A stretch of 64,000 nucleotides of DNA from Lysinibacillus sp. FSL M8-0337. Its GTDB lineage: Bacteria; Bacillota; Bacilli; Bacillales_A; Planococcaceae. The stretch is taken from the NCBI RefSeq assembly GCF_038593855.1, contig NZ_CP151996.1, positions 2,976,001-3,040,000 of the forward strand, read 5' to 3'. Shown piece by piece: positions 52,497 to 57,936 of this stretch (its first letter is position 1; every line of letters starts with the position of its first letter). The notes beneath the pieces were generated by a model. The model was not told where the DNA came from. It saw only the letters and a list, made by a program, of their open reading frames with translations, and ran no database searches. The position numbers were made by a program, and so were the translations under genes.

Positions 52497-52552
52497 CAAC
52501 ATTACTTCGTATCGTCCATTTTCAGAAGTCATAAATGCTTCCTATAGAAACG
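52497..52552 (-). pseudogene. Decayed copy of the lepA 3' end
   Basis: The plus strand from 52497 (TCAACATTACTTCGTATC...) matches the lepA end at 56104-56165. Exact blocks are TTACTTCGTATC (52502-52513; 56110-56121) and CATAAATGCTTC (52530-52541; 56140-56151), with a 2-base gap between. On the minus strand it still encodes EAFM and, after the gap, KMDDTK-stop, as in lepA. Its match also runs a few bases past the stop. Confidence 0.8.
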
Positions 52553-52665
52553 TTGTATTCAGGATGTATCTGGGATATAGAATGAACACCCATTTTTATG
52601 GATTATTCAGCTAAGCACAAGACATCGATAAACATTCTATTCGCATGTCCACAACCATAAAAAAT

Positions 52666-52694
52666 AGCCCCCTTATCAAATAAATATGAGGGCT
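52666..52694 (-). terminator. Terminator of the SH3-like secreted protein gene
   Basis: AGCCCCCTTAT / ATATGAGGGCT imperfect stem, minus-strand tail TATTTTTTATGG. Confidence 0.68.
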
Positions 52695-52713
52695 TTATAT
52701 AATTCTTAATCTA

Positions 52714-53478
52714 TCACTTATCTCCAACTGGCTTTAGTGAATTCATTGGAAGATAAACAGCATTATCGAGTCTTCCTTCTAATTCATCGGTTACATATAT
52801 ATAACCATTAATTTCATGATCATACCTTGAATAAACAGTACTTCCCTTTTTCATAATTCTTTCAGTCTTAGATTCTTTTAATGGAACGCCCTTCCCCTCT
52901 TCATCTCTTGTTAGTTCATAACGTACACCTCTTTCTCTCGATATTGTCTCAGCGATTTTAAGGTCTGTACCAGGATACTCGTAACAAAATTCCTCACTAC
53001 CATCACCACTTTCGCAATACTGTAGTAGTTGACCATTATTTGTATCCTTGAAATTAAAACTCCATGGTCCTTCTAGTTTGATGTATGATCCGTAATATAA
53101 GCCATCATTAATACCATCGCGAGTAATAACAATATAAGCTGGTTTGTTATAAAAAGAAGAACGAATTTTTATTGGTACTTCTTTGAAAACTACCAAATCC
53201 GTTGCTTGTACGCGGTATTGCCCCATTTGATAGAATATTTTTTTATCATATTTTTCAATATCATACGTTCTAAAGAAGTTATTTCGCTTTACCACTAAAG
53301 ATTCAAACGTACCATCTGAATTTTTCTTGTATACCTTAATGTCTTTTTTAAAGGTCATTTTTCCTGTTTGCCCTTTTACAACTTCCGCTCCATCATGCAT
53401 CACTTTAGCTTCTGGTTTCGTTGGATTTACTACTGCAAATACGAATGCTGCTAGTAACACAATAAATAATTTTTTCAT
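52714..53478 (-). CDS. Secreted hypothetical protein, possibly SH3-like
   Basis: This 254-aa protein has a signal peptide (LFIVLLAAFVFAVVNPT, cut near PEA-KV). The mature protein is beta-rich with TGKMTFKKDIKVYKKNSDG at the start and repeated short strands, resembling bacterial SH3-like segments, though I cannot name the family. ATG 53478 follows AGGAGGAG. It is the first gene next to the lepA relic. Confidence 0.65.
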   Translation of the reverse strand: MKKLFIVLLAAFVFAVVNPTKPEAKVMHDGAEVVKGQTGKMTFKKDIKVYKKNSDGTFESLVVKRNNFFRTYDIEKYDKKIFYQMGQYRVQATDLVVFKEVPIKIRSSFYNKPAYIVITRDGINDGLYYGSYIKLEGPWSFNFKDTNNGQLLQYCESGDGSEEFCYEYPGTDLKIAETISRERGVRYELTRDEEGKGVPLKESKTERIMKKGSTVYSRYDHEINGYIYVTDELEGRLDNAVYLPMNSLKPVGDK

Positions 53479-53695
53479 TATTCTCCTCCTACTCAGTTAT
53501 AAAAACATAATTTCTTAGTATTATATACCAGTAACTTAATATTCTATCAACGGTTGTTAAAAACCCTACAAAAGTATAGTATTTTTCCAAAACATTATTT
53601 CTCCCATCTACCATTCTACCCAGTTCTCTTTTTATATCCATAGCAATTTTGAATAGCTAGCTTTAATAAAGTCAGGTGCACTTTGAAGCTGTGTA

Positions 53696-53874
53696 ATGGA
53701 TGCTAAAGGTTTGAACATTACGTAATTAGCTAAAAAAATGGGAACTTGACAATCAAATTTATCAAAAAATTAAAACGTGATAATTTCAGTGAAAAAGAAT
53801 TACAAGAAATAGCTGATATTTTAGGGATTAAGTTTGAAGCTCATTTTGTGTTAGAAGAAGGTACGAAGATATAA
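53696..53874 (+). pseudogene. XRE/Cro-type repressor pseudogene
   Basis: Reads MDAKGLNIT-stop-LAKKMGT-stop-QSNLSK, then after a one-base frameshift KLKRDNFSEKELQEIADILG and IKFEAHFVLEEGTKI-stop. LAKKMGT...NLSKKLKRDNFSEKEL is characteristic of small phage or conjugative-element HTH proteins. Two in-frame stops and one frameshift show it is dead. No binding site before the ATG is good. Confidence 0.7.
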
Positions 53875-53894
53875 ATAATCTGCGGAGGGCTAAC

Positions 53895-55367: not shown

Positions 55368-55388
55368 AATAAACGCTCTTTTTTCGCA

Positions 55389-55796
55389 TTAGTCTTGATT
55401 TAGATGTAATAATTTTTGTAAAGGAATTTTGTCAACGTCTAAGTTATATTTCTCCTGTAATACCGTCTTAAAAATATTTTCAACAATACCTGTATAAAAT
55501 GTAACTACTACATCACAGTGTGCTAATGCAACATGGTCTGTAAGTTGTTTAGAAAATTGATTAATTGGTTCTATATGTTCTTTTTTGACAAGATGCTTAG
55601 AATAAACACTAACGGTAATTAAATTCCCCCTTAAATCATCTTCAAAAAAAATATCATTGGGAGATAGGTTTAGATCTTTTATTTCAGAAGCTCGATTTTC
55701 ATCAACAATAAATAATCGATAAACATCTTTACCAAACTTAACATCCCATACTTCCATATCTTTAAATCTTAGTATTCTTTCAAAATAATCAAACAT
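55389..55796 (-). CDS. Hypothetical protein (135 aa)
   Basis: Soluble protein starting MFDYFERILRFKDMEVWDVK; alternating beta and helix pattern, no signal peptide, no recognised family. ATG 55796 follows TAGGAGTG. The secreted pseudogene starts 21 bases downstream, so the two formed an operon. It lies inside the segment bounded by the lepA end and its relic. Confidence 0.6.
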   Translation of the reverse strand: MFDYFERILRFKDMEVWDVKFGKDVYRLFIVDENRASEIKDLNLSPNDIFFEDDLRGNLITVSVYSKHLVKKEHIEPINQFSKQLTDHVALAHCDVVVTFYTGIVENIFKTVLQEKYNLDVDKIPLQKLLHLNQD

Positions 55797-55978
55797 TTCT
55801 ACACTCCTAATTTATTAAAAATTATTCTAATATTTTACATTAATAATTATAAGAGTTAATTACTCCGAGGTATATTAATACCTATCATTATTATATATTA
55901 ATTTTCAATCAGAACTTCACGTCACTTTTTTGATTGATGTATATAGTGTGTCTGTTTTTATCTGACACCTTTAATAAA

Positions 55979-56006
55979 AGCCCTCCACAATCATCTGTGG
56001 AAGGCT
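55979..56006 (-). terminator. lepA terminator
   Basis: AGCC-C-TCCACA / TGTGGA-A-GGCT around a 6-base loop; minus-strand tail TTTTATT. It lies about 100 bases after the lepA stop. Confidence 0.85.
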
Positions 56007-56091
56007 AATTCTCAATCATATTAATAACGGTGGCGAATCGGTGGCATCCTCCACCCAAAGGATATAAAATTACTAATTAATAACCTCTATA

Positions 56092-56111
56092 AACGTTGTT
56101 ATTTCAACGTT
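56092..56111. repeat. Inverted repeat across the lepA stop
   Basis: AACGTTG, 6 bases, CAACGTT. It straddles the lepA stop codon (56110-56112), at one edge of the sequence duplicated at 52.5 kb. Confidence 0.7.
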
Positions 56112-57936
56112 ACTTCGTATCATCCATCTTCAATACAGCCATAAATGCTTCTTGTGGAACTTCGACTGAACCGACTTGTTTCATACGCTTTTTACCTTCT
56201 TTTTGTTTATCAAGAAGTTTACGTTTACGAGAAATATCCCCACCGTAACATTTTGCCAATACATTTTTACGCATCGCTTTTATTGTCGAACGTGCGACAA
56301 TTTTTTGACCGATTGCAGCTTGAATTGGGACTTCGAATTGTTGACGTGGAATCAATTCTTTTAGTTTTTCTACGATTACTTTCCCACGCTCGTAAGCAAA
56401 GTCACGGTGCACGATAAAGCTTAGTGCATCGACTTGCTCGGCATTTAATAGGATATCCATCTTCACTAGTTTTGACGGCTGATAACCGATTAGCTCATAA
56501 TCAAATGATGCATAGCCTTTGGTATTTGATTTTAAATAATCGAAGAAGTCGTAGACAATTTCAGATAATGGCATTTCATAAATAATGCTGACACGTGACG
56601 TATCAATATAATCCATCGTCATGAAATTACCACGTTTCAATTGGCAAAGCTCCATTACCGCACCAACATAATCATTCGGTACCATAATTGTCGCTTTCAC
56701 ATATGGTTCTTCAACACGGTCAATTTTTTGTGGGTCTGGCATAAAGGATGGGTTGTCGACTTTAATGGACGTACCATCTGTCATATAAACATCGTAAATT
56801 ACCGATGGTGCTGTTGTAATTAAATCAATGTTAAATTCACGTTCAATACGTTCTTGAATAATTTCCATATGAAGAAGCCCTAGGAAACCACAACGGAAAC
56901 CAAAACCAAGCGCTTGCGATGTTTCAGGTTCATATTGTAATGCAGAGTCATTTAACTCTAATTTTTCTAACGCATCACGTAAATCATTATATTTAGCAGT
57001 ATCAATTGGATATAATCCACAGTATACCATTGGATTTAAACGGCGATAACCTGCTAATGCCTCTGCTGCTGGACGATTAGCAAATGTTACAGTGTCCCCC
57101 ACTCGCGTATCCCCAACATTTTTAATAGAAGCTGTTAAGTAGCCCACATCTCCAACCGTTAATTCACTTTGTGGCACACTTTTCGGAGTATGTACGCCGA
57201 CTTCAATAACATCAAATTCTGCACCTGTCGCCATCATACGAATTTTATCGCCAGGTTTAACCGTACCATTCATAATTCGAATGGAAATAATAACACCTTT
57301 ATAGGCATCGTATACTGAGTCAAAAATAAGTGCTTGTAATGGTGCTTCTGGATCGCCTGTTGGTGCAGGAACCTTTTCAACAATTTGTTCTAAAATATCT
57401 TCAATACCGATACCAGCTTTTGCGGAAGCTAATACCGCTTCTGAAGCATCTAAACCGATAACGTCTTCAACTTCTTGACGAACACGTTCTGGATCGGCTG
57501 CTGGTAAGTCAATTTTATTGATAACTGGCAAAATTTCTAAATCGTTATCAAGTGCTAAGTAAACGTTAGCCAATGTTTGTGCTTCGATGCCTTGTGCTGC
57601 ATCCACAACTAAAATAGCGCCCTCACAAGCAGCTAAACTACGTGATACTTCATATGTGAAATCGACATGTCCTGGTGTGTCGATTAAATGGAATGTATAC
57701 ACTTCGCCATCTTTGGCTTCATATTTTAATTGGACTGCATTTAACTTAATTGTTATGCCTCGCTCACGCTCTAAATCCATTGAGTCGAGTAGCTGTGCTT
57801 TCATTTCACGGGATGTCAGTGATTTCGTTTGCTCTAAAATACGGTCAGCAAGCGTTGATTTCCCGTGGTCAATATGTGCAATAATAGAGAAATTTCGTAT
57901 GTTCTCTTGTCTTTTTAATCGTGCTTCTCGGTTCAT
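56110..57936 (-). CDS. lepA: Elongation factor 4 (LepA)
   Basis: This 608-aa translational GTPase has G motifs [21 protein letters not shown] and [14 protein letters not shown]-like domains, and the LepA-specific C-terminal domain ([16 protein letters not shown] [20 protein letters not shown]). It acts on ribosomes in translation elongation or initiation under stress. ATG 57936 is 8 bases from AGGAGTG; the GTG three codons earlier overlaps that site. Its 3' end is duplicated at 52.5 kb. It is normally followed by hemW. Confidence 0.97.

Follow-up and report, generated by a model that had tools for sequence, protein, structure and literature searches.

Why does a Lysinibacillus genome carry a second, decayed end of lepA about 3.6 kb from the real one? 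The stretch analysed here, called the window throughout, covers 64,000 nucleotides (positions 2,976,001-3,040,000 of a 4.56-Mb single-contig genome) and contains lepA, the gene of translation elongation factor 4, together with a displaced copy of its last codons near 52.5 kb. The answer that we favor, with a probability of about 95%, is that this copy is the attachment-site scar (attR) of a prophage, since decayed and almost entirely deleted, which a phage tyrosine recombinase had inserted in the final 42-45 bp of lepA. The evidence lies in the duplication and its orientation, in the arms beside it, in the integrase that relatives carry at the same place, and in pairs of empty and occupied sites.

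The duplicated lepA end and its arms

Three features define the duplication.

56110..57945, minus strand: lepA, intact, identified by its open reading frame (ORF) and NCBIfam TIGR01393; its 3' end is the predicted attachment site
56110..56151, minus strand: putative attachment (att) core of the present attL, at the end of the functional lepA, made up of the last 14 codons including the stop; the duplicated stretch in relatives is 42-45 nt long and ends at the stop
52502..52541, minus strand: displaced, decayed lepA end, the putative att core of attR; a 40-nt copy of the final 42 nt of lepA

A reading of the window made from its sequence only had described the last codons of lepA as repeated near 52.5 kb, with two 12-base blocks, a stop codon and a 2-base deletion. 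All of these were seen, and the copy was placed at 52502-52541, in lepA orientation, with the exact blocks GAAGCATTTATG and GATACGAAGTAA. The match was better than chance outside the blocks as well: local alignment of positions -50 to +14 gave 51 identities and a score of 57, against at most 29 for ten shuffled queries, and the similarity extended beyond the stop codon. A 251-base lepA-end query compared with the whole genome matched only itself and the 52.5-kb copy at E 0.001 or better (second match, E 5.4e-7). The lepA reading frame was intact, and LepA was 95-100% identical across all 32 genomes of our Lysinibacillus sample.

Both cores are flanked by further distinctive sequence.

56028..56109, minus strand: attL phage arm, holding the repeats GGTGGAGGATGCCACCGATTCGCCACC and the greater part of the inverted repeat found at the lepA stop; present also in the attL of relatives but not in the empty site that genome G007 carries
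52542..52571, minus strand: right-end phage arm next to the displaced core (GATACATCCTGAATACAACGTTTCTATAG); the same or a near-same arm in G028, G006, G025 and G001, part of it in G021
52482..52501, minus strand: sequence after the displaced stop, resembling by alignment an older attL arm (TGTTGATTTATCAATATAGG); similar CGTTGATATAACAACGTT arms in relatives

The copy at 52502-52541 is identified as the probable attR because the phage right-end arm adjoins it, as in relatives. Positions 52488-52571 aligned over 86 columns, at 82.6% identity, with attR of an IMG/VR database prophage, and other sequence took the place of GATACATCCTGAATACAACGTTTCTATAG before the displaced core in G008, G009, G016 and G013. 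GGTGG/GCCACC repeats and an inverted repeat followed the lepA stop in the window and likewise in many relatives, and both look like integrase arm sites. The att core and arms of the window fit the lepA-clade integrase group in the attL arm and the attR arm, as compared with Lysinibacillus elements and not with the Paenibacillus phage Fern discussed below. The sequence TGTTGATTTATCAATATAGG after the displaced stop is possibly the sign of an earlier integration.

The inverted repeat across the lepA stop (AACGTTG/CAACGTT) had been put forward as the crossover region. Save for its last two bases it lies outside the duplicated core, within the arm of phage origin, and the empty site of G007 does not have it; it is therefore not the crossover. 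Genomes with the G013-type arm (G013, G026, G012) all end GACGATAGCAAATAG, and this common ending suggests a crossover upstream of the last four codons of lepA. G029 and G015 end differently, though their integrases are closely related to the G013 type.

Integrases, elements and empty sites in relatives

In 27 of the 32 Lysinibacillus genomes, lepA and hemW, its neighbor in most of the family, were found on one contig and gave complete intervals. Twenty distinct lepA-end queries were compared with 33 sequences, namely these 27 intervals and six pieces from three split genomes, with a score cut-off of 60. This search revealed ten displaced lepA ends in ten of the 27 complete intervals, all in lepA orientation. 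Eight weaker hits (scores 32-41) were also in lepA orientation, whereas the other strand gave none at 32 or above and reversed sequences gave one, below 36. G023, whose interval was partly covered, held a further displaced end (42/42).

A lepA-type tyrosine integrase or its remnant was present directly past lepA in 22 of the 32 genomes (within 500 bp of the stop, at E 0.01 or better), with no hit in 30 shuffled flanks. G013, G009 and G029 carried opposite-strand ORFs of 390, 399 and 405 aa right past lepA, and those of G013 and G009, the two scanned, matched PF00589 and PF14659. The earlier reading had proposed to look for larger, integrase-bearing elements with the same lepA-end repeat at their boundaries. 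Such elements were found in G009 (43.4 kb, 42/42 nt), in G013 (36.8 kb) and on two IMG/VR contigs, and also in another genus, where the 43.9-kb element of G150 had a 42/42 repeat and an integrase 83% identical. Among the genes tested, those of the G013 element matched families of terminase, portal, major head, tape measure and baseplate proteins, and those of the G009 element families of terminase, primase and major head proteins; both elements are tailed prophages by these matches. In the lepA-hemW intervals of both G009 and G023, two lepA-type integrases or remnants stood one behind the other, and a copy of the lepA end shortly preceded each of them, as in stacked elements. In G001 (C1, near 3956911) the LepA match stopped at residue 566 of 611 and the att core still followed in the DNA, a case of frameshift or sequencing error.

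Comparison of close genomes showed the site both empty and filled. G008 had 6,913 bases more than G007 at the lepA stop, flanked by an exact repeat of 45 bp; the downstream flanks of the two were 99.3% identical over 13.5 kb, and the 80 nt of lepA before the stop were identical. In G007, lepA ran directly into the sequence found after the displaced copy of G008. For the window, IMG/VR contig 3300011698_000010 matched positions 54152-56159 with its bases 1-1983 (95.8%) and positions 56110-59107 with its bases 47017-50015 (99.3%). Between these flanks lay about 45.1 kb, examined at its two ends, with a lepA-type integrase match ending 108 bp from the lepA stop. Because this contig carries both flanks of the window around its 45.1 kb, the window's own lepA site is taken as the unoccupied counterpart of the filled site there. 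G013 had the window-type lepA end and arm displaced by 36.8 kb, by a different phage, and the scar core and its arm were absent from G013 at the matching place. In the sister species G028 the same scar was present with an undeleted core, which agreed with that genome's lepA at 40 of 42 nt; its attL and attR were those of the window, with just 2.0 kb between them. Site-specific integration at the lepA 3' end, as the sequence-only reading had it, is thus borne out by the repeat-bounded, integrase-bearing elements of relatives, the empty and occupied sites and the phage arm at the copy.

In the mechanism that we propose, a phage tyrosine recombinase would target the last 42-45 bp of lepA, and the phage site (attP) would bear its own copy of the lepA end. 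Because of that copy, integration would restore lepA with phage-supplied last codons and 3' flank (attL, 56.1 kb) and would push the original end to the far side of the phage (attR, 52.5 kb). A later deletion would have taken the integrase and the phage body and left about 3.6 kb, partly right-end cargo. The recombinase would act as its family implies, and the present attL and attR would come from one phage.

The remnant and the rival explanations

The 3.6 kb between the two cores contained the following features.

53871..54228, plus strand: module comprising a Lys-rich mini-ORF (53907-54062) and the first part of the lipoprotein gene; found again in lepA prophages near the attR end
54152..54757, plus strand: BLIP/DUF3862-type lipoprotein, phage-moron type cargo (PF07467, PF12978, phrog_6148)
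52714..53478, minus strand: 254-aa secreted protein with a signal-like start; no match in Pfam, PHROGs or NCBIfam
55389..55796, minus strand: 135-aa ORF; no match in Pfam, PHROGs or NCBIfam

The module 53871-54228 was 88% identical to IMG/VR contig 3300011698_000010 and 81.6% identical over 299 bp to the G013 prophage, and the G009 prophage matched only the pieces flanking it. All these prophage matches lay within about 3.3 kb of attR, and for this reason the remnant probably holds right-end cargo of this phage group. The lipoprotein had been recognized from the sequence alone and was confirmed by its BLIP/DUF3862 match and PHROG "moron" family 6148. The Lys-rich mini-protein, described as phage-like, belonged to no Pfam or PHROG family, and its phage link survives in the recurrence of its DNA in two lepA prophages. 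The supposed secreted gene has a signal-like start and matched no family in the three collections. The label of XRE repressor pseudogene was dropped, as the piece in question is a 34-aa stop-free stretch with no Pfam match and a best PHROG hit of E 0.067. Of the families that the remnant matched, none at curated cut-offs concerned conjugation or mobilization, in a search not aimed at such genes. The host genome had 15 PF00589 matches, none close to the lepA type (best lepA-type integrase match E 1.2e-27, 28% identity). The window carries a scar, not a working element.

Several results weigh against the prophage-scar reading. The segment had been said to lack an integrase, and a search of the remnant indeed gave nothing below E 0.68. 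At score 60, 17 of the 27 complete intervals had no displaced copy, and ten of the 32 genomes had no integrase piece at E 0.01 right past lepA; weaker hits were obtained in three of these ten (G004, G027 and G030, whose contig ends there) and no integrase piece in the window, G028, G007, G001, G005, G017 and G024. The 17 kb from the scar to hemW yielded no further lepA-end copy, and lepA-targeted integration is therefore not shown to account for the whole 21-kb interval. Finally, phage-like sequence follows the displaced stop, and because the sequence there already looks phage-derived, the segment may stem from more than one event.

This last point leads to the strongest rival, in which attL (56.1 kb) and attR (52.5 kb) derive from different phages and the segment is a composite of serial integrations and deletions. 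The resemblance of the sequence past the displaced stop to an attL arm speaks for it, as do G009 and G023, where lepA elements stand in tandem and bring two integrases or remnants, and the further event on the same background in G013 and the IMG/VR contig. However, G028 shares both attL and attR with the window, at a spacing of only 2.0 kb, and the remnant cargo matches one prophage group; a composite origin is a serious but less probable account, perhaps one chance in three. A non-phage element with the same type of integrase, such as an integrative and conjugative element (ICE), a mobilizable island or a satellite, would explain why none of the five remnant ORFs scanned matched a phage structural family. 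Both large elements examined encode terminase and major head proteins, the G013 element also portal, tape measure and baseplate proteins, and remnant DNA is held in common with three lepA prophages. One of the three ORFs scanned in the 6.9-kb element of G008 was a full-length match to a phage family of unknown function, with partial tail/Ig-domain matches besides, and a non-phage origin is regarded as improbable. Chance similarity, or a simple duplication of the lepA end in which site-specific recombination took no part, could draw on a copy that is short and decayed (51 identities over -50 to +14). It was refuted by the occurrence of the copy at a single place in the genome, the orientation bias with its controls, the adjoining phage arm and the exact repeats around larger elements, and its probability is close to nil.

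Known lepA phages and the lepA-hemW interval

The prophage-scar reading has precedents. The earlier reading knew of no description of lepA as an attachment site, yet such sites are already in print (PMC12453123, PMC10688831, PMC13090387). Paenibacillus phage Fern (Fernvirus) is reported there as integrated in P. larvae lepA with a 35-bp duplication, and bases 19,500-19,535 of Fern_IDv1 include 35 identical to host lepA (PMC12453123). The Fern integrase was 54.5% identical to that of G009 and grouped with lepA integrases on our tree; a lepA-end-like stretch (10/11 residues; weak alone, E 0.74) lay at 19,500-19,532 of the record, about 105 bp past the integrase. Fern differs in its host family and in being a fresh integration in resistant isolates, unlike the decayed scar and genus-wide hotspot with serial events described here. 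The lepA-clade integrase would recombine attP with lepA; in this clade, integration events are reported for Fern only (PMC12453123). Latilactobacillus curvatus prophages of integrase group VII are also reported in lepA, in another species of Bacilli (PMC10688831). Gifsy-1 of Salmonella is likewise reported to use lepA, but in an unrelated host and near the gene start, with an excision site within about the first 123 bp and not at the 3' end (PMC13090387); lepA is also named as a prophage site in S. enterica, citing Bobay et al. (PMC5502288). Integrases at the 3' end of rlmD (Clostridia, Listeria) are related tyrosine integrases with the same convergent layout and another target gene. They are distinct from the serine integrases of streptococcal ICEs, whose target is rumA (PMC4701971).

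Other candidate sources were set aside. IME8 of L. sphaericus has its attB in yolD, not lepA (PMC13239906); "lepA" is an author name in a reference in PMC11318856 and PMC3401170; and in PMC4494060 lepA serves PCR typing and phylogeny. No paper on lepA-site integration in Lysinibacillus was found in a literature collection that lacks most subscription journals and was partly screened by title and abstract start. What is new is Lysinibacillus as host genus, its repeatedly used lepA hotspot and the scar decay series; the type of event is already known.

Among 42 relatives of the integrase in named genomes, 11 lay 86-146 bp from the lepA end (L067 being counted on the evidence of a 153-bp tail, E 0.005) and 15 next to rlmD; the other 16 had neither gene beside them or stood at a contig end. 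The rlmD integrases were 81-123 bp from the gene end at 14 of the 15 loci and 664 bp at one, with rlmD named by NCBIfam for one locus. A quick tree (36 rows, no bootstrap) placed the 13 lepA-labelled rows in one group of 15 (SH-aLRT support 99), five of the 13 labels, Fern's included, having been assigned by the analyst. The remaining two rows were contigs ending 49 and 194 bp past the integrase, the second with a partial lepA end. The lepA integrases sat near rlmD-targeting relatives, with the branch order among rlmD groups not resolved. One contig of Tetzosporium hominis (L070, NZ_NOKQ01000128.1; 17.6 kb, with 3170x coverage given in the record title) had a lepA-group integrase, a partial lepA end and then unrelated DNA, and may be the attP of a replicating phage.

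The other end of the interval is hemW.

33939..35222: hemW, named by NCBIfam

The gap from lepA to hemW was 21 kb in the window, and the distance from lepA to the hemW match was 8.1-74.3 kb in all 27 one-contig genomes of the genus. For the 134 sampled genomes outside the genus with a lepA match, hemW was counted if on the same contig and strand within 200 kb. This held for 111, of which 67 had hemW no more than 500 bp away, 29 at 0.5-2 kb, 12 at 2-8 kb and three beyond 8 kb; in the other 23 the genes were split or far apart, or no hemW was listed. Eight expanded intervals outside the genus were inspected: seven (G155, G097, G157, G106, G048, G049 and G072) had no lepA-end repeat or integrase, and G150 had both. 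In genus g14 of the same family (G062, G125 and others), lepA and hemW lay on opposite strands and over 1.1 Mb from each other in 13 of 13 sampled one-contig genomes, with three more split, an arrangement that points to a rearrangement breakpoint between the two genes. The window also contained two tandem repeats, one at 13139-13457 (41-bp unit, 7.7 copies, 98%) and one at 41328-41546 (42-bp unit, 5.2 copies, 94%) within ORF 41224-41649, which has a repeated heptad-like sequence.

A broader proposal, which we rate at even odds, is that the lepA 3' end is a serially reused phage site of Lysinibacillus. One integrase clade, related to the rlmD integrases, would keep inserting there, each event would rewrite the last codons and the 3' flank of lepA, and the debris would make up most of the 8-74 kb lepA-hemW region seen in every complete genome of the genus and rare in the rest of the family. 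Related species offer a decay series of one att site, from integrase-bearing prophages through a nearly intact and a half-decayed scar to a deleted one. For annotation, the lepA-hemW gap of Lysinibacillus is best read as a prophage hotspot, and for engineering, the lepA end with a lepA-group integrase is a candidate integration site that keeps the gene intact. Across Bacilli, the end of a conserved translation-factor gene serves as an anchor for a group of phage integrases.

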